IMG/VR virus record: IMGVR_UViG_3300042010_000030
Location: 1-64,000 of that record
DNA length: 64,000 nt
Strand: one strand, 5' to 3'
Origin: a virus
Position 1 is the first letter of the stretch. Every line of letters starts with the position of its first letter. The position numbers and the translations under genes are program-made. The notes beneath the pieces were generated by a model that saw only the letters and a program-made list of their open reading frames with translations, ran no database searches and was not told where the DNA came from. This document shows, piece by piece, positions 16,519 through 25,063 of this stretch.

Positions 16519-17010
16519 ATGATGAAAACTGTTACAGGTAATCTGGTATCGATGGTCAAGCAAGGCCAGTTCGACATCATCATTCACGGTGCGAACATCC
16601 ACAACACGATGGGTAGCGGCATCGCTGCTGAGATTCGTCGTGAACTGCCTGAGATGTATGAGGCTGACTTGGCGACTCGGATGAGCGACATCCGCAAGCT
16701 CGGTCACTTCTCGGTTGCTCAGCTTGTCAAGTATGAGACTCAGACAGGCAACCCATTCATCGACCGGCCGTTCGGTATCAACCTGTACACGCAAGCAACG
16801 ATGGGCGGGCCTGGTGTCCACATCGACTACGAAGCGTTTGAGCGTGGCATGTACGCGATCAACATGATGTTTGCTGCATACCCTGTTCAACCGAAGTTCG
16901 GTATCCCGAAGATCGGCGCAGGTCTGGGTGGTGGTGACTGGGATCGCATCGTGGACATCGTCAAGAGCATCGGCTTTGCTGACATCACCTACGTCGAGTT
17001 CGACAACTAA
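16519..17010 (+). CDS. Macro-domain protein
   Basis: 163 aa, a single macro domain. GNLV at 7-10, DIIIHGANIHNTMGSGIAAE at 19-38 and the C-terminal GIPKIGAGLGGGDWDRI match ADP-ribose-binding macro domains of the Appr-1''-p/ADP-ribosylglutamate hydrolase type. Such proteins bind or remove ADP-ribose from protein or nucleic acid. A PARP-type transferase is encoded 2.8 kb upstream. It is followed two bases later by a HAD phosphatase gene. Confidence 0.83.
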   Translation: MMKTVTGNLVSMVKQGQFDIIIHGANIHNTMGSGIAAEIRRELPEMYEADLATRMSDIRKLGHFSVAQLVKYETQTGNPFIDRPFGINLYTQATMGGPGVHIDYEAFERGMYAINMMFAAYPVQPKFGIPKIGAGLGGGDWDRIVDIVKSIGFADITYVEFDN

Positions 17011-17011
17011 T

Positions 17012-17608
17012 ATGGCTATCATCGGCGTAGACGTTGACCTGACTGTCGTGAACAGCGACATTGCGTGGTTTGACTGGTGCAACTCGAAGTGTCGCAACAA
17101 ACTTAACCATGCTGAGCTGATCGCTGAACGTGGTATGATTCCATATCACTTCGGTGAGCTGTTTGGCTTCGTCAATCCAGAAACTGCGCTTGACTTCTGG
17201 GATGAGGAGTATGTCTACGATGAGCTTGAGCCTATCGCGCACTCTGTCAATGCGTTGAAGGAACTCAGCAGACATCACCAGATCGTCTTCGTGTCGAAGC
17301 TGATGGGTAATCACTTCGAAAGTAAGAAGAGCTTTCTTGAACGCAACTTCCCGTTCATGTCTGGTTTCATCGGCACTGATCAGAAACAGTTCGCCCGCGT
17401 AGACATCTTGATTGATGATCGAGTCGACCACCTAAATAAGGTGCAGAAAGCAGGGATCGTCCCTATTCAGTACATGACACCATACCATCAAGATGAAGAA
17501 CCGGCCACTGACATGGCGTTCATCAAATCGTGGCTTGACCTGTTGTGCACTAATGAGGACACCTTGTACAATGCACTCTTCGAAAACTACCGGACAGCTA
17601 AAGTATGA
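17012..17608 (+). CDS. HAD-family phosphatase
   Basis: 198 aa from ATG 17012. GVDVDLTVVNSD is the DxD nucleophile motif near the N-terminus, VFVSK is motif II and DILIDDR is motif IV of the NT5C-like HAD group. It is a second, distinct copy of the type at 9049. It overlaps queE as ATGA, so a role in nucleotide supply for the deazaguanine pathway is possible. Confidence 0.7.
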   Translation: MAIIGVDVDLTVVNSDIAWFDWCNSKCRNKLNHAELIAERGMIPYHFGELFGFVNPETALDFWDEEYVYDELEPIAHSVNALKELSRHHQIVFVSKLMGNHFESKKSFLERNFPFMSGFIGTDQKQFARVDILIDDRVDHLNKVQKAGIVPIQYMTPYHQDEEPATDMAFIKSWLDLLCTNEDTLYNALFENYRTAKV

Positions 17609-18489
17609 AAGATGTAAAGTTCACTGAGATGTTCTACTCGATTCAGGGTGAAGCACTCAACACAGGTAAGCTGTGCACTTGGCTGCGCTTGTATCTGTGT
17701 TCGTTGCAGTGCCGTGGCTTCGGTCAAGTCGAACCGGGCAACCCTGAGACATGGGCTGAGCAATACCCGCTGATCGACGTGAAGAACATCACCGAGCTTG
17801 AGAAAGTGCCAACCCCAAGCACTGGTTGCGATTCCGCATACTCGTGGAGCGCACAGTTCAAGCACCTCGTCAAGACCAAGACCACGCGTGAAGTTGCGAC
17901 TGAAATCCGTGCAATGACGGGTCAAAAGAACTTCGGTAAGATCGGTCACGTCTTCACAGGCGGTGAACCTATGATGCAGCAGGAAGCAATTGCTGAAATC
18001 ATCATGTACTGGATCGATGTCGATGAAGACTGGCCAGCATGGGTCGGCTTCGAAACGAACGTTACTCAGAAGATCAAACCCGAGTTGCGTAAGGCGATCC
18101 AAGCGCTGAAAGACCATGAGTGTCATGTCTACTTCTCTATGTCGCCTAAGCTGTTGCACGTCTCAGGTGAAGAGCCGAAGAAAGCGATTCGCATTGACCT
18201 GATGGCTGAATACGTCAACCTCTGCCCTCAGAGCTACCTGAAGTTCGTGTTGAACGAAGACCAGCGTGCCTGGGATCAAGCTGCAAACATCGTACACGTC
18301 CTCGAACACTGCGGATCTTGCAACTACTGCGACATTGATGTATGGGTAATGCCTGTAGGCGGTGTGATCGGTCAACAGCTTGACCCTGCTGTAGGTCGTA
18401 TCGCAGACAAAGCGATCAAAGAATACCAGTGGAACGTTAGCCCTCGGGTACATGTTCTGATCTGGGGCGATGATCAAATCGGACGCTAA
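17605..18489 (+). CDS. queE: 7-carboxy-7-deazaguanine synthase QueE
   Basis: 294-aa radical SAM enzyme that converts carboxytetrahydropterin to 7-carboxy-7-deazaguanine. FYSIQGEALNTG and WLRLYLCSLQC near the N-terminus, the later cluster cysteine in TGCDSAYSW after a long insert, and FTGGEPMMQQ match phage QueE. The insert between cysteines with GFGQ is typical of T4-like phage versions. It starts within the stop of the HAD gene and heads the QueE-membrane-QueD run. Confidence 0.9.
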   Translation: MKDVKFTEMFYSIQGEALNTGKLCTWLRLYLCSLQCRGFGQVEPGNPETWAEQYPLIDVKNITELEKVPTPSTGCDSAYSWSAQFKHLVKTKTTREVATEIRAMTGQKNFGKIGHVFTGGEPMMQQEAIAEIIMYWIDVDEDWPAWVGFETNVTQKIKPELRKAIQALKDHECHVYFSMSPKLLHVSGEEPKKAIRIDLMAEYVNLCPQSYLKFVLNEDQRAWDQAANIVHVLEHCGSCNYCDIDVWVMPVGGVIGQQLDPAVGRIADKAIKEYQWNVSPRVHVLIWGDDQIGR

Positions 18490-18492
18490 CTG

Positions 18493-18735
18493 ATGATCAC
18501 CATCGCAACATGGGGAGGTATCCTGATGTGTATCGGGGCCTTCCTTTCATTAAAGGGTAAAATCTATCAAGCTGTAGCAACATACCTGTTTGCTGATGCG
18601 TGCTGGGTTTGGTTAACGTTCGACAAGGGCGACTACCAAGCGCTGTTCTTCACGTTAATAGGTTCACTGCTAAGCTTGGCAGCGTTCATCAAAATGTACC
18701 TAGGTGTCATGAGGAAGGACTTGAAAAATGATTGA
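18493..18735 (+). CDS. Small membrane protein in the deazaguanine operon
   Basis: 80 aa with three hydrophobic stretches (ITIATWGGILMCIGAF, AVATYLFADACWVWLTF, LFFTLIGSLLSLAAFIKMYLGVM). It lies 3 nt after queE and overlaps queD by 8 nt, so it is co-translated with the pathway. No family recognised. A role in uptake or membrane placement of a precursor would be inference from position only. Confidence 0.75.
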   Translation: MITIATWGGILMCIGAFLSLKGKIYQAVATYLFADACWVWLTFDKGDYQALFFTLIGSLLSLAAFIKMYLGVMRKDLKND

Positions 18736-19345
18736 GGTTCACAGCACCAAAGTTTATCAACGACTTGCAACGGCGCATGCCCAGTTCTTCGACAAAGAAC
18801 CAGACGGCTCGCCAGGTGAGTGCGCAAGCGTTCATGGTTATGACCGAACGATCTCTCTCACCTTCTCTGGTGAAATTGACGAAAATGGTTGGATCGTTCC
18901 CTTCGGTGAACTGCAAGAAGTCAAGAAGTTTCTTGAATTCTACTTTGACCACACAATCGTCTTGCCAGCGAACGACCAGCGTATCAGTGGTATCACACAA
19001 GAAATGACCAAGCCAGGAGGTCTGTTCAGCAAGTTGCGTATTCTACCATGCGGCGTAAGCATGGAAATGTCCTCTCTGTTCATCTGGGAGTTCATTTCAC
19101 CGTATATCACCCACGTTACCAACGGTCGGTGCTATGTGTCGCGTGTTGAGAGCCGTGAGCATGAATGCAACAGCGCCTACATCACCGTAGACCGTGAGAC
19201 TGCAATGAAGACCTACAAGCAGTTGATCGCAGGTGGTGAACAGTTCATGGGCGACCCTACGGCGTTCTTGCTTGTCAAACAAGCAAGTTGGGATTACATC
19301 GCGCCGAAGGACGCGCTTGATTGGTACAGCAAGCTATCAGCATAA
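18728..19345 (+). CDS. queD: 6-carboxytetrahydropterin synthase QueD
   Basis: 205 aa, T-fold enzyme turning dihydroneopterin triphosphate into carboxytetrahydropterin. Seen: a possible zinc His in ATAHAQFF, catalytic-type C32 and H36 in CASVHGY, PFGELQEVKKFLEFYFDHT, GVSMEMSSLFIWE and RVESREHECNSA. Where bacterial QueD has HGH, this protein has HGY (Y38), so one usual zinc ligand is changed or supplied elsewhere. It is longer than cellular QueD (about 120 aa), as in other phages. Confidence 0.85.
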   Translation: MIEVHSTKVYQRLATAHAQFFDKEPDGSPGECASVHGYDRTISLTFSGEIDENGWIVPFGELQEVKKFLEFYFDHTIVLPANDQRISGITQEMTKPGGLFSKLRILPCGVSMEMSSLFIWEFISPYITHVTNGRCYVSRVESREHECNSAYITVDRETAMKTYKQLIAGGEQFMGDPTAFLLVKQASWDYIAPKDALDWYSKLSA

Positions 19346-19563: not shown

Positions 19564-20259
19564 ATGACTAGCCCAATCAAAGTTATCGACCCAGCTGTTA
19601 AACTGAACCTCGCTATCGAATCCCTGCTGAAGCCGCAACTGAAAGCGAAAGAACTCGCTGAACAGTTCGGTATGAGCGAGACGACCGCCAAGCGTGCGAT
19701 GAAAGACTTTCACGACGAAGCGTGCAAGATCATCGACCAGCGCGTAGCTGACGAAGAGGCCGCCCTGCAAGCTGCTGAAGACGCGAAGAAAGCTGCAAAG
19801 ACTTCGTCGTCGAAGAAGGGCGGTAAAAAAACTGAAGCTGATGCACCAAAGACCGATGCTCCAAAGGTCGAAGATGCACCGAAGACTGATGCACCACCAG
19901 CAGCGCCGGCGGCCCCAGCAACACCAAAAGCACGCGCTCCAGGTACTGACATCGCTCGTGGTGAAAAGGGCTTCAAGCCGCGCAACGGTCGCTGGACTGT
20001 GCTGAACGCACTGTTCGCTGAAAAGGGGTTCGATGATGCAGCGGCCCTGTACATCGAAGCGAACAAGCGTGGTGTAGCTGCTGGTCTGAAAGAGCTGAAT
20101 CGCGGTAGCTTCTACTCGATGTTGAGTATGGCGAAAAAGAAAAGCTTGACGGCTGCGGCTACGGCTGCTAGTGTTAAAGATGTAAACAAAGATGACAACA
20201 AAGCAGCAGACACAAGCACTAGCAATGACGCAGGTGCTGCTGACACAGACAAGAGTTAA
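19564..20259 (+). CDS. DNA-binding-like protein with Ala/Pro linker, paralogue 1
   Basis: 231 aa. An N-terminal helix-turn-helix-like part (LKAKELAEQFGMSETTAKRAMKDF) is followed by a Lys/Ala/Pro-rich linker with repeated DAPK units (about 85-135). A compact C-terminal domain (GFKPRNGRWTVLNALF...GSFYSMLSMAKK) and an acidic tail close the protein. The C-terminal domain recurs in the gene at 20367. The architecture suggests an abundant chromatin-like or regulatory protein; the family is not recognised. Confidence 0.7.
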   Translation: MTSPIKVIDPAVKLNLAIESLLKPQLKAKELAEQFGMSETTAKRAMKDFHDEACKIIDQRVADEEAALQAAEDAKKAAKTSSSKKGGKKTEADAPKTDAPKVEDAPKTDAPPAAPAAPATPKARAPGTDIARGEKGFKPRNGRWTVLNALFAEKGFDDAAALYIEANKRGVAAGLKELNRGSFYSMLSMAKKKSLTAAATAASVKDVNKDDNKAADTSTSNDAGAADTDKS

Positions 20260-20366
20260 CAGTTAGCTGTAATCGATTCAAACGCATTGTTTTCGTAGTA
20301 TTGCGTCGTTTCTGTTAGTGAGTCTGTTGTGTTCTGAAACCATTCTTGAATACTTGGAGTACTACC

Positions 20367-20831
20367 ATGAAAACTATCGACACTACCAAAGCTCGCATTG
20401 AAGTCGCTAAAATCGCAATCGAATCAATCAAGATGCTTGCGCATCTTGAAGGTACTGATCTCGCTAGCTTGCTCGCTGAGTTGAACGCTGAAGACTCGCA
20501 ACTGAATGCCGCAACACCAGCTGTGCAACCAGCTAAGGGCTCCAGGAGCAAGAAAGCGACAGGTACCGTTATCGCGACTATTCCGGCTCCAACCCCAGCA
20601 CCATCAATAGCAAACGATGGTGTCGATGAGCGTGGTTATCACCCTCGCAACGGTCGTTGGGAAATGCTGAACAAGATGTTCGCAGAAGTTGGCTTCAATA
20701 AGAGTACTGGTGAACTTTTCGACGAGGCGAATAAAAGGGGTGCAGCACTTGGTCTCGAACCTTTGCGCAAGACCACGTTCTACTCGATGCTCAGCGTTGC
20801 CAAGAAGGCCGCTGGTTACGTCAAGAAGTAA
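20367..20831 (+). CDS. DNA-binding-like protein with shared C-terminal domain, paralogue 2
   Basis: 154 aa from ATG 20367, with TTGGAGT upstream at 20354-20360. A helical N-terminus, an Ala/Pro/Lys linker and the C-terminal domain GYHPRNGRWEMLNKMF...TTFYSMLSVAKK align with the gene at 19564. The N-terminal domains differ, so the C-terminal module is the conserved functional unit. Function unknown. Confidence 0.7.
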   Translation: MKTIDTTKARIEVAKIAIESIKMLAHLEGTDLASLLAELNAEDSQLNAATPAVQPAKGSRSKKATGTVIATIPAPTPAPSIANDGVDERGYHPRNGRWEMLNKMFAEVGFNKSTGELFDEANKRGAALGLEPLRKTTFYSMLSVAKKAAGYVKK

Positions 20832-20975: not shown

Positions 20976-21650
20976 ATGTCCTTCCAACCTACGAAAACCG
21001 ATGCAGCACTCGGCAAAGCTGTCAACGATTACTTGATCCTGAAAGGTGTAGCTACACCGACTATCGCGTCTGACCTGAGCGACGACGACAAGGTTCGGAT
21101 TATCGAAGATCACATGACCGAAGTACTCACCACTCTTGGTCTTGACCTGGCTGATGATTCTCTGGCTGAGACACCTCGTCGTGTGGCCAAGATGTTTGTC
21201 AAAGAACTGTTCTGGGGCCTGAAGACCGAGAACTTCCCTAAGGCTACCACTGTCGACAACAAGATGTCCTACAACCAGATGGTTGTTGAGAAAGACGTGA
21301 CCATCATGTCGAGCTGCGAACACCACCTTGTCACGATTGACGGTATCGCGCACATCGCCTACATCCCTAAGGGTAAGGTACTGGGTCTGTCGAAGCTCAA
21401 CCGTATCGCTGAGTACTTCGCTCGCCGTCCACAGATTCAAGAGCGTCTGACCTTGCAGATCGCACACAGTCTTCAGTTCATCCTCGACACCGAAGACGTT
21501 GCTGTTGTGATCGATGCTGAACACTACTGCGTCAAATCGCGCGGTGTTGAAGACCACGGTAGCCATACAGTCACTTCGTACCTCGGTGGTTCGTTCAGCA
21601 GTAATCCAGTATGCCGTCAAGAGTTCATGAGCATCGTCTACTCCAAGTGA
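20976..21650 (+). CDS. folE: GTP cyclohydrolase I FolE
   Basis: 224 aa. It makes dihydroneopterin triphosphate from GTP, the first step toward 7-deazaguanines. The ETPRRVAKMF segment, zinc Cys/His in SSCEHHL (C114, H117), GLSKLNRIAEYFARRPQIQE and the second zinc Cys in AEHYCVKSRGVE are all present, so it should be active. It is followed 8 nt later by dpdA. Confidence 0.93.
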   Translation: MSFQPTKTDAALGKAVNDYLILKGVATPTIASDLSDDDKVRIIEDHMTEVLTTLGLDLADDSLAETPRRVAKMFVKELFWGLKTENFPKATTVDNKMSYNQMVVEKDVTIMSSCEHHLVTIDGIAHIAYIPKGKVLGLSKLNRIAEYFARRPQIQERLTLQIAHSLQFILDTEDVAVVIDAEHYCVKSRGVEDHGSHTVTSYLGGSFSSNPVCRQEFMSIVYSK

Positions 21651-21658
21651 GGTTTTAA

Positions 21659-22936
21659 ATGTTTGAGTACGTTGCTTCTGGTCTGAGTCACACTCGGATC
21701 ATGCAAAAGATGGCACTTGAGTCGCCCGCGCACCTTGCTATTGACGACATGATCGGCTCTATGCAAGGTAAGTACGGGCACACGTACAGTTGCCTGTTCA
21801 ACGCGCACACTGAAAAGCAATACGGGCCACAGGTCAACGAGTTCTACAAGCAGTGGCATAAGATCCATTCTGACTCTGGTGGCCTTCAGATCATCACCCA
21901 GGGCCTGACGATTACCGAGCAAATGAAGCTAGATGTCTATGACATCCAGTCGAAATATTCGGACATCGCCATGAGCTTCGATGAAATCCCGATTGTCCTG
22001 ACAGGCAAGACGTCTGGTCGTAACGATACCGATGACCGCTTCTTTGATGCTGCGAACTTCACCGACTATGCCAAGCGCACAGGTGAGAACATCCGCAAGC
22101 AAATCGAATTCATCGTTGACAATGACCGCATGCGCTGCAAGCCGCTGTTGATCATTCAAGGCAACTGTGTTGACACGTACAAGCAATGGCTAGATGTCCT
22201 GCTTGAGACCATTCCTGATAACTTGCATCAGTACATCGGTGGTATCTCTCTAGGGGCGGCAGGCCTCGGTACAGGCCCGCTGGAAGACATCGAACGTATG
22301 TTCAGCTTCACGCAACTTGAAGCACCAGACCACATCAAGAATACCTTGCACATCCTTGGAGTCGGTAGCGTCAAGCGTCTGTTGCCTGCGGTGATGTTCA
22401 AGCGTTCAGGTATGTTGGATGGGGTGCATGTGTCGTATGACTCGACGTCGCACACGAGTGGCGTGACGATGGGTCATTACTACAGCTACGATTTTAAAGG
22501 TAATCGGAAGTTCCCTGTGACCTTCTCTCGGTTCTCTGAACAGATCATGCGCGACATCGAAACCTACTTCGGCTTTAACCTTGACCCTATTATCTTTATG
22601 GATTCAATCCGTTTAAGTAATAAGGCATTTGCTGACAGGCATGGTGAGCCTGATGACGCAATGAATGAACTTCGGTTGAAGATTTGTTTTGGTTTTATTT
22701 GCGCATCGATACTTAACTTTACTCGGCACGTTGACGAAATCACAACTAACGAGTATAGTTTGACCGAGTTCGTGCAAGAGCAAGGGTTGAACCCTATGCT
22801 GCACCTGCGCGATGTAAATGACATGGCAAGTTGGAACGACTGGAAACGGAACTTCGGTAAGAAGGTTCAAAGTCGTCGCATTAAACACCTCAGTGAAGCA
22901 AACAATCAATCTACTCTTTTCGACTTAGCAGGATAA
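21659..22936 (+). CDS. dpdA: DNA guanine transglycosylase DpdA
   Basis: 425 aa, TGT-related enzyme that swaps guanine in DNA for a 7-deazaguanine. DSGGLQ at 72-77 is the TGT active-site loop, followed by SFDEIP, the base-pocket strand GGISLGAAGLGTGP, and LLPAVMFKRSG. The canonical tRNA-TGT zinc site (CxCxxC) is absent, as is typical for phage DpdA. The neighbouring folE, queD and queE supply the substrate. Which DpdA subfamily it belongs to cannot be judged here. Confidence 0.85.
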   Translation: MFEYVASGLSHTRIMQKMALESPAHLAIDDMIGSMQGKYGHTYSCLFNAHTEKQYGPQVNEFYKQWHKIHSDSGGLQIITQGLTITEQMKLDVYDIQSKYSDIAMSFDEIPIVLTGKTSGRNDTDDRFFDAANFTDYAKRTGENIRKQIEFIVDNDRMRCKPLLIIQGNCVDTYKQWLDVLLETIPDNLHQYIGGISLGAAGLGTGPLEDIERMFSFTQLEAPDHIKNTLHILGVGSVKRLLPAVMFKRSGMLDGVHVSYDSTSHTSGVTMGHYYSYDFKGNRKFPVTFSRFSEQIMRDIETYFGFNLDPIIFMDSIRLSNKAFADRHGEPDDAMNELRLKICFGFICASILNFTRHVDEITTNEYSLTEFVQEQGLNPMLHLRDVNDMASWNDWKRNFGKKVQSRRIKHLSEANNQSTLFDLAG

Positions 22937-22940
22937 GTTA

Positions 22941-23330
22941 ATGATCACCAAGTATAACAGTGAAGTATTCGTGACCTTTCAACGTGAAGGTATCCATTGC
23001 TATCCGGCCGCTGCAACTGATCCGAAGTTGGCAACTGGTGGCTGGGATGATGTTAGCTTTCTCGCATCGCCACATCGCCATATGTTTCACTTCAAGTTGA
23101 CCCTCGAAGTATTCCACAATGACCGTGATATCGAGTTCATCCAACTCAAACGTCAATGTCTGAAGTGGTATGACGAAGGCACTCTGAACTTCGACCACAA
23201 GTCCTGCGAGATGCTGGCCGATGAACTTGCCGAACGCGTTGCTGCACAGTGGCCAGGTCGCACCATCAAGATCGAAGTGAACGAAGATGGTGAAAACGGT
23301 TGCGTCAACTCTTACTGCGACGGTATCTAA
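22941..23330 (+). CDS. Second QueD-like T-fold protein beside dpdA
   Basis: 129 aa. The T-fold pattern of 6-pyruvoyl/carboxy-tetrahydropterin synthases is visible: PHRHMFHF (H45, H47 match the zinc HxH), DIEFIQLKR (matches the DF-LK segment), SCEMLADELAERV (matches PT-E-LA) and IKIEVNEDGENG (matches the E-T region). The catalytic Cys four residues before the HxH is missing. A full-length QueD is encoded at 18728, so this protein probably does a different step, perhaps tailoring the base. It starts 4 nt after dpdA. Confidence 0.65.
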   Translation: MITKYNSEVFVTFQREGIHCYPAAATDPKLATGGWDDVSFLASPHRHMFHFKLTLEVFHNDRDIEFIQLKRQCLKWYDEGTLNFDHKSCEMLADELAERVAAQWPGRTIKIEVNEDGENGCVNSYCDGI

Positions 23331-23333
23331 CTC

Positions 23334-24377
23334 ATGGGCACAGTGCACCTCATCGAACTAGAACCGATTGAGAGTCGCTATACATCGATCTGGAAGCACA
23401 CGCTTCCAGCATTGATCGAGACTCACGGGATGAAAGTCAACGTCATTGCAGGGGAAGCCAGGGGCTCCGACACTGCAACAGAAGGCGCGTTTCTCAACTT
23501 CACGAAGACCAACGAGTTCAAAGCATCACAAGCGATCATCTTGGCGCGTGCGTTTGATGATGGTACAGTCACTGATGGTGATGTGCTGTTGTTCACTGAT
23601 GCATGGAACCCTGTGATCTTGATGGCGCGCTACATGATCGACTTGACAGGTAAAGATGTTCAGATCGCCAGCATGTGGCACGCAGGTAGCTATGACCCTC
23701 AAGACTTTCTTGGTCGCAAGATCCCGAGCAAGACATGGTCATTCAATGCTGAGCGCGCAATGTTCTATGCTGCCGACGTGAACTTCTTTGCGACTCAGTT
23801 CCATGTTGACATGTTCTGCAATACGCTCGGTGTCGATAGACGTCATTCGACGATCCATAAGGCGGGCTTCCCGTTCGAATACATCGCAGAGATTGCGCAA
23901 TGTGCAACGCCTGCTGATCTCGTTAAGGAAGATATTGTTTGTTTTCCGCACCGACTAAGCGAAGAGAAGAACTATAACCTGTTTAAGCAACTTGAAGTTA
24001 TGTTACCACAATATAAGTTCATTGCCTGTCAGGAAAGTTCGTTGACTAAGGACGAGTATTACAATATCCTTGCTCGCTCTAAGTTGCTGTTCTCGGCAAA
24101 CAAACAGGAAACTCTCGGTATCGGCACATATGAAGGATTGGCTCTCAAGGCAATCCCGATGGTGCCCGACTACTTGTCATACTCGGAAATGTACAACGTA
24201 CTGTTCAAGTATGATCCAGCGGAGATGCGTGACCCACAGGCAATGGCTGACTTGATTGTTCATTACATGAATAACTATGACAAGCTTGCGCCGCGACTCG
24301 ATAAAGAGTTCGAACGCATCTCTGCGACCTTCTTCACCTCAACCTCAATGATGACCACTTTAAAGGAACTGATGTAA
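23334..24377 (+). CDS. Glycosyltransferase-like protein
   Basis: 347 aa with a GT-B-like layout: an N-terminal acceptor half, VCFPHRLSEEKNYNLFKQLEVMLP (as in GT4 'rlspeKN'), SKLLFSANKQETLGIGTYEGLALKAIPMVPD (the E-x7-E-type donor site). It follows the QueD-like gene by 3 nt. It could glycosylate the modified DNA base or act on the host surface; the position in the modification cluster favours the former, but this is inference. Confidence 0.7.
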   Translation: MGTVHLIELEPIESRYTSIWKHTLPALIETHGMKVNVIAGEARGSDTATEGAFLNFTKTNEFKASQAIILARAFDDGTVTDGDVLLFTDAWNPVILMARYMIDLTGKDVQIASMWHAGSYDPQDFLGRKIPSKTWSFNAERAMFYAADVNFFATQFHVDMFCNTLGVDRRHSTIHKAGFPFEYIAEIAQCATPADLVKEDIVCFPHRLSEEKNYNLFKQLEVMLPQYKFIACQESSLTKDEYYNILARSKLLFSANKQETLGIGTYEGLALKAIPMVPDYLSYSEMYNVLFKYDPAEMRDPQAMADLIVHYMNNYDKLAPRLDKEFERISATFFTSTSMMTTLKELM

Positions 24378-24379
24378 CT

Positions 24380-25063
24380 ATGAACTTCGATACTTTTAAC
24401 CGCCAAATCCAAGACGTTATCGACTGGAACGCGGTTGCTCGCAAGATGACCCACACCTTCACTCCAGAACAACTGGTAGCACAGACTGCATATGTCCATG
24501 AAGAGGTGATGGAAACTATCGCAGGCATCGCAACCAAAGACACGAAGGAAACTCTGGATGGCATCGCTGACATCTTCGTCACCCTTGCCTACAAGTACTT
24601 CCTGATGCGTCAAGAGTTCAATGCCGACTTCAACGTTGAAGACCTGTTCGGTGAAGACATCAGCACAGACCCTCGCCTGCAACAAGACTACCTGCTGTCG
24701 CTGACCAGCACCATCTCAACCAACAACCTGTTTGCAGAAGGCCTGCACGACATCGAATTCACCATGAGCCTGCTGTACCTGCTGATGTACGTTGCTGAAG
24801 ACCTGTATAAGGTTGATATGCATGTCGTCGTCGATGCGGTGATGGAAAGCAACTGGAGCAAGTTCCCAATCGCCAGCGAAGTCAAAGACATTGACGCTAT
24901 GTGTGAGTGGATTGAAGAAGTCCGCAAGCGCGAAAACGTCGGCTACTCGTTTGCTGAAGTTGCTGGTGTCCAGCGTGTAACCTTCCGTGACAACTTCGGT
25001 GAAGGCAAGATCATGAAGCCTTCGACTTTCGTTGAGCCGAACATCGCCGCACTGCTGAAGTAA
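24380..25063 (+). CDS. MazG-like nucleotide pyrophosphohydrolase
   Basis: 227 aa. YVHEEVMETIAGIATKDTKETLDGIADIFVTLAYKYF has the EExxE...ExxD helix pair of all-alpha NTP pyrophosphatases. The C-terminal 100 residues form a second helical part not recognised. It lies 2 nt after the glycosyltransferase. It may clear nucleotides or signalling nucleotides. Confidence 0.65.
   Translation: MNFDTFNRQIQDVIDWNAVARKMTHTFTPEQLVAQTAYVHEEVMETIAGIATKDTKETLDGIADIFVTLAYKYFLMRQEFNADFNVEDLFGEDISTDPRLQQDYLLSLTSTISTNNLFAEGLHDIEFTMSLLYLLMYVAEDLYKVDMHVVVDAVMESNWSKFPIASEVKDIDAMCEWIEEVRKRENVGYSFAEVAGVQRVTFRDNFGEGKIMKPSTFVEPNIAALLK

Follow-up and report, generated by a model that had tools for sequence, protein, structure and literature searches.

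Why should a phage that encodes a full QueD keep a second, shorter QueD-like protein directly beside its DNA-guanine transglycosylase, and on what does this protein act? The question arises in the window (the whole stretch of 64,000 nucleotides analysed here, part of a 92,779-base IMG/VR virus record), which possesses the following genes, all on the plus strand: QueE, the radical SAM CDG synthase (17605-18489; phrog_2076, E 2e-55), QueD, the CPH4 synthase (18728-19345; PF01242 (PTPS), E 7e-12; phrog_2389, E 7e-27), FolE, GTP cyclohydrolase I (20976-21650; PF01227, E 3e-62), a DpdA2-family DNA-guanine transglycosylase of 425 aa (21659-22936; phrog_10773, E 3e-100), the QueD-like T-fold protein of 129 aa, here called X (22941-23330, ATG to TAA; phrog_17812, E 8e-34), a GT4-like glycosyltransferase (GT, 23334-24377; profile matches weak, the best being the mannosyl transferase 2f9f with E 0.0012, and phrog_4356 with E 7.5e-4) and a MazG-like nucleotide pyrophosphohydrolase (24380-25063; phrog_671, E 8e-23), whose membership in the pathway is uncertain. 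A macro-domain-like protein (16519-17010; phrog_335, E 7e-46) lies 5' of this deazaguanine cluster. Within the cluster, two adjacent ORFs (19564-20259 and 20346-20831) have the C-terminal motif NGRW..LN..FAE.GF...ANKRG...FYSMLS.AKK in common and are apparently paralogues. The QueD of the window contains HGY instead of the usual HGH, which we take to be a zinc-type ligand site; one ligand looks replaced, with Cys and Asp-His retained.

The stop codon of dpdA ends at 22936 and is separated from the ATG of X by 4 nt (GTTA), and only 3 nt connect X to the GT4-like gene. An AGGA at 22930-22933 (plus strand), Shine-Dalgarno-like and 7 nt 5' of the X ATG, may serve as its ribosome site. Compared over 125 codons with a 93% identical homologue (L005), X differs in 46 nucleotides, 34 of them in third positions, and in 9 amino acids (dN 0.039, dS 0.702, dN/dS ~0.06); the ORF is genuine and under purifying selection. 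A minus-strand ORF overlapping X (22938-23348) is unsupported. The first-pass annotation had described a short QueD-like ORF 4 nt from dpdA with a full QueD at 18728, and both are present as described; its motifs H45-R-H47, DIEFIQLKR (63-71), SCEMLADELA (88-97) and VNEDGENG (113-120) are likewise found where it placed them.

The AlphaFold2 model of X, built from the window sequence and 51 viral homologues, has a mean pLDDT of 93.7 and a pTM of 0.84, and its elements (E7-19, E45-57, H62-78, H89-103, E109-115 and E120-125) follow the beta-beta-alpha-alpha-beta-beta order of a T-fold. Foldseek against the PDB places E. coli QueD at the top (4ntk_D, E 3.5e-4, TM 0.66), followed by other PTPS, QueF-Like and dihydroneopterin aldolase. 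VIA-align yields Z 11.8 with Pyrococcus PTPS (2.1 A over 93) and Z 10.8 with QueD (2.4 A over 107), the latter value being equalled by dihydroneopterin aldolase; because of this tie, structure alone gives the T-fold, and Foldseek and sequence give QueD. Structure prediction against QueD had been set beforehand as a test in the first-pass annotation, and by its predicted fold X is a T-fold protein with QueD as its nearest relative.

Profile-profile comparison of 234 X and 59 QueD sequences aligns the two families near end-to-end (probability 94.6 local, 98.1 global), and across families QueD receives 57%, seven others at most 1%. The PHROG match of X to the QueD family is weak (E 0.036), as it is in 12 of 52 X family members (best 0.007). 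Searches of Pfam, NCBIfam and PDB sequences with X return nothing above chance; a PTPS Pfam match is absent for X of the window, and a distant member (L227) stays under the cut-off with E 0.025. A match of X to nicotinamide-nucleotide adenylyltransferase (E 0.0058) dissolves into short pieces.

In the profile alignment H19, H45 and H47 of X fall on three zinc-type His of QueD, E115 on the ring-binding Glu and S88-C89-E90 on T-x-E, and the IDF/IEF helix is aligned between both families. F40 stands where QueD has its catalytic Cys, and X possesses nothing that corresponds to the Asp-His loop; we presume the QueD residue roles to be those of zinc His, catalytic Cys, Asp-His pair and pterin-ring Glu. 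S88, C89, E90 and E115 are each present in 234/234 X sequences down to ~32% identity, R62 and E65 in 231/231, H45 and H47 in 228/228 and H19 in 227/227 non-gap sequences; H59 is a further conserved residue. A Cys anywhere within residues 25-44 occurs in just 2 of 234 sequences, and no reductase or oxygenase motif is seen in X. Since an invariant active-site-like set is conserved across 234 sequences, X reads as no decayed QueD, with a firm residue set of its own that includes C89. The earlier statement that X lacks the catalytic Cys therefore holds for the QueD position (F40) and overlooked the Cys of the family itself, C89, which is present throughout.

The X family is phage-borne and widespread. 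It is found with tblastn in 27 of 50,697 phage records, annotated as hypothetical and at <60% identity in all of them, among others in the Pseudomonas PA5oct/Paride group, Acidovorax ACP17, Cellulophaga phiST and Sinorhizobium Phosso. The X protein is gp040 (AGO47179.1) in phiST and ASD50405.1 in ACP17. For PA5oct, a deazaguanine system is already noted in passages of PMC7824862. X relatives are encoded by 391 of 394 pattern-matched viral stretches and, in a second viral-contig scan, by 579 of 598 pattern-matched stretches among the matches listed. Locus counts given here refer to the best 80 loci per scan, i.e. to high-scoring members, and the scans overlap, with some loci sharing contigs and one contig possibly counted more than once. 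Scans seeded with X of phiST or of Ahp1 return zero relatives in viral contigs. In a set of bacterial and archaeal genomes, one for each species, there are 21 X loci, all judged by their neighbour genes to be phage or prophage; 20 of them contain one or more of the pathway, DpdA or GT families, and L218 has X alone. For the two Amycolatopsis loci among these (L228 and L230) a bacterial secondary-metabolite origin was considered; phage head genes, recognised by eye in the translations, make prophages likelier. Two BFVD entries ('alcohol dehydrogenase' and 'AAA domain protein') apparently contain an X-like part; such a fusion is absent among 77 further X frames, of which the sole long one (L236) resembles a read-through of a non-coding upstream frame.

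X is accompanied by DpdA-type genes in 178 of 197 viral loci, in line with the co-occurrence proposed by the first-pass annotation; neither of the two outcomes that it had named as contradicting it, a fold other than the T-fold or the company of QueD without DpdA, is observed. Of three transglycosylase-type families, each of these 178 loci has a single one in its fetched flanks; no locus has two, and 19 have none. The first is the type of the window, kin of nt-1 DpdA2: the window DpdA matches the Vibrio phage nt-1 gene with ~38% over 64% of the query, nt-1 being among 70 matching records, and matches TIGR00449 with E 0.006, under the family cut-off. The name DpdA2 for the nt-1 gene is given in passages of PMC6884629. 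The second type, of 515 aa, matches that of the window by profile comparison (probability 93.3). The third, the A8 family of 286 aa (e.g. L006, 5955-6821), has no usable sequence match to known TGT/DpdA. Its predicted structure (mean pLDDT 89.0) has tRNA-guanine transglycosylases or DpdA (7ui4) as the first 36 Foldseek matches, and in VIA it scores Z 17.8 against archaeal TGT and Z 17.6 against DpdA; as modelled, the family has a transglycosylase fold.

Among 74 X loci flanked by 6 kb or more on each side, FolE is present in 67, QueE in 52, QueD in 25, a DpdA type in 71 and the glycosyltransferase in 68, the QueD and QueE counts per locus being low because both profiles started from window sequences and the flanks extend only a short distance. 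In 30 whole X records, several of them fragments, FolE is over the Pfam/PHROG cut-off in 25, QueD in 21, and a full-length QueE (E < 1e-40) is present in 25. In L021 (175 kb) and L025 (160 kb), which contain X, a full FolE, QueD or QueE is not found, and in L021 neither is a DpdA; the missing enzymes may be supplied by the host or by the remainder of the genome.

Several other genes recur around X. In L021 (9773-10390) and L025, X adjoins a macro-domain-like gene. In L227 (9929-10861) X and a MazG domain (PF03819, E 5e-9) form one fusion protein; a DpdA of the 286-aa type and, by eye, a YhhQ-like transporter come next. The A5 family of 172 aa (e.g. L071, 8927-9442) is present in 114 of 197 X loci, mostly directly upstream of X, with no family match over cut-off in PDB, PHROG or Pfam. 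A phosphoribosyltransferase family (PF00156, e.g. L018, 19237-19776) occurs in 87 of 197 X loci, beside the base-exchanging DpdA.

A near-full-length QueC is found in none of 73 X-holding records (the window's own record, 29 and 43 others), and the matches there extend over little more than half of QueC at most. The 29 include Faecalibacterium phage Roos (W08), with a weak X relative (E 2e-5) and without QueE or QueD. Five partial QueC matches are over the cut-off, i.e. two NAD synthases, one PP-loop protein and two divergent QueC-like proteins (Vibrio D479 and G021), and five are below it (G012, G015, G016, G020 and W11). In contrast, QueC is over the cut-off in 7/7 DpdA records that lack X (nt-1, Moby, pf16, VH7D, 1.081.O, 2.275.O and K566), full length in six and divergent in Moby; this contrast group was chosen by hand and five of its members are Vibrio phages, so that they are non-independent. 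X is found in 0 of these 7, the control of the scan giving no match either, and in several of them QueC and DpdA share one gene cluster. Vibrio nt-1, with DpdA2 and QueC, contains mainly dPreQ0 according to passages of PMC6884629. As near-full-length QueC is missing in X records and QueC is present in DpdA records without X, X is probably an alternative way to use CDG that replaces QueC; the association of X and dpdA with QueC-less phages, suggested by the first-pass annotation, is thus recovered with a contrast group.

The computed properties of X are its T-fold, its kinship to QueD, the kept metal-type and ring-binding residues, the loss of QueD catalysis, the link to DpdA and the exclusion of QueC. 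Its anatomy and the gene content make it very probable that X acts on CDG or its product, in support of the earlier proposal of a deazaguanine base as target; CDG is the substrate that we infer. In the proposed pathway, FolE, QueD and QueE would lead to 7-carboxy-7-deazaguanine (CDG), and X would occupy the branch point after it, QueC's place in other phages. E115 would bind the guanine-like edge, with the 7-carboxylate placed close to a metal that H19, H45 and H47 coordinate; a conserved acid (C89, H59 or E65) would protonate C7 and CO2 depart. The product, 7-deazaguanine (DG), would then be swapped for guanine in phage DNA by the neighbouring DpdA.

This decarboxylation is favoured because, of the reactions that need no co-substrate, taking off the carboxylate is the simplest, and as a hypothesis we give it an even chance. 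CDG without its carboxylate is 7-deazaguanine, and protonation of the electron-rich pyrrole at C7 with subsequent CO2 loss suits a small metal-holding T-fold. Cui et al. 2023 are said to describe 2'-deoxy-7-deazaguanine (dDG) and dCDG in phages, and reportedly named a predicted CDG decarboxylase DpdL. That study is cited in passages of PMC13329287 and PMC12783734. No published description of the X family was found in the open-access literature, a scope without Cui et al. 2023. Against decarboxylation stand L021 and L025, which carry X with the gaps given above, the divergent QueC-like protein in two X-holding records, and TubF, a proposed CDG-type decarboxylase that is of UbiD type and acts on a nucleotide according to passages of PMC6112128. 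The main strain is that plain 7-deazaguanine offers no obvious attachment point to the X-dependent glycosyltransferase.

What is new here is this GT4-like glycosyltransferase tied to X. A scan seeded with GT gives 79 best-scoring loci, 75 of which contain X; in the other four, GT lies right where the locus is cut. X is present in 15/15 phage records in which 80% or more of GT is covered, and four further phage records share 60% of GT at 23.6% identity. X occurs without GT in Cellulophaga phages including phiST and in 29 viral loci whose DpdA is of the 286-aa type; across X loci this DpdA type and GT are mutually exclusive. In ACP17, Paride, X1 and Magnetospirillum loci, X, DpdA and GT are close together in differing orders. 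Families of NDP-sugar epimerases and UDP-glucose dehydrogenases are present in many GT/X/DpdA loci (GT loci L314-L388). As GT is never found without X where testable, and gene orders near X and DpdA vary, the gene arrangement suggests that GT works on the product of X, hinting at glycosylated deazaguanine DNA in phages with X and GT. Only tentatively can the whole be read as FolE, QueD, QueE and X making a base of no known pathway, which one of several DpdA families inserts and the X-dependent GT glycosylates in DNA. Equally tentative is its extension to the PA5oct/Paride group, ACP17, Phosso and the phage of the window, and hence to many large phages.

The strain on decarboxylation would be relieved if X gave a 7-deazaguanine with a nucleophilic handle (e.g. 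a hydroxyl), or readied the base, for a sugar added by the GT4-like enzyme. The dependence of GT on X (75 of 79 loci with four cut at the edge, 15/15 phage records), the shuffled orders of DpdA, X and GT and the nearby NDP-sugar epimerase and UDP-glucose dehydrogenase families are what such a role would leave behind, and the T-folds, fold kin of X, include a cofactor-free urate oxidase. However, the 29 loci and the Cellulophaga phages with X and without GT indicate that a handle is not needed everywhere, and X has no motif of a reductase or oxygenase, so we hold this route unlikely. It is rather improbable that X is a non-enzymatic CDG carrier or specificity partner of DpdA, with dCDG inserted: the loss of the QueD catalytic residues and the tight linkage to DpdA of three families would fit, but the metal-ligand set, S-C-E, H59, R62 and E65 are kept to ~32% identity and look catalytic, and a metabolite fits the service of three unlike transglycosylase families better than a partner protein.

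Action at the nucleotide level, e.g. on the mononucleotide of CDG or DG and in concert with the phosphoribosyltransferase, MazG and kinase-like genes, could explain why 87 of 197 loci have the phosphoribosyltransferase family, as well as the fusion of X with MazG in L227 and an AAA_18 gene that overlaps X in phiST; we consider it quite improbable, as more than half of the loci have no gene of this kind in reach and TGT-type enzymes work on free bases. The kinship of X to QueD raises, finally, the idea of a second CPH4 synthase, i.e. a QueD isozyme, or of a dihydroneopterin triphosphate enzyme. A full QueD is encoded in the same genome and is over the cut-off in 21 of 30 X records, and X lacks the catalytic Cys and Asp-His of QueD; the isozyme identity was rejected on the missing residues and the nearby QueD, and we hold this idea scarcely credible. 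Decarboxylation of CDG by X would provide a concrete small protein for the use of CDG in QueC-less phages, and the exclusion of QueC predicts dDG, or something derived from it, in place of dPreQ0 or dG+. An X-dependent GT would further predict hypermodified guanine in already cultured phages, and the invariant S-C-E, His and Glu of X single out residues for point mutation.

Among known systems, TubF is proposed to remove the 7-carboxylate from the same ring system, in contrast to X as a UbiD-family protein with a proposed prFMN cofactor and a nucleotide substrate (passages of PMC6112128), and no kinship between the two is seen. With QueD/PTPS (PF01242; E. coli QueD 4ntk) X has in common the predicted T-fold, three metal-site His, the IDF/IEF helix, T/S-x-E and the ring Glu; it differs by F40 in place of the catalytic Cys, by deletion of the Asp-His loop and by the additional invariant C89, and X of the window has no Pfam match and works beside a full QueD. 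QueF and QueF-Like are T-folds as well and weak structural kin of X (5k0p); QueF works on C7 of deazaguanine, where it acts on a nitrile, with its Cys at another place than in X. QueC (PF06508) would share with X the substrate CDG and the slot in the pathway, and is of the unrelated PP-loop fold. It is ATP-dependent and makes preQ0 via ADG, as given in passages of PMC13329287. The X phages fit a gene set of FolE, QueD, QueE and DpdA from which near-full-length QueC is absent. This setting, which we take to define DpdL, presumably puts X at the same step, and X may well be the DpdL family of Cui et al. 2023. The 'tailoring enzyme class' of the first-pass annotation stands as a supported reading, its novelty less so, as such an enzyme may already be predicted in print as DpdL. 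If X is the published DpdL, it forms no new class, and the present analysis adds its anatomy, its reach and its link to a glycosyltransferase.
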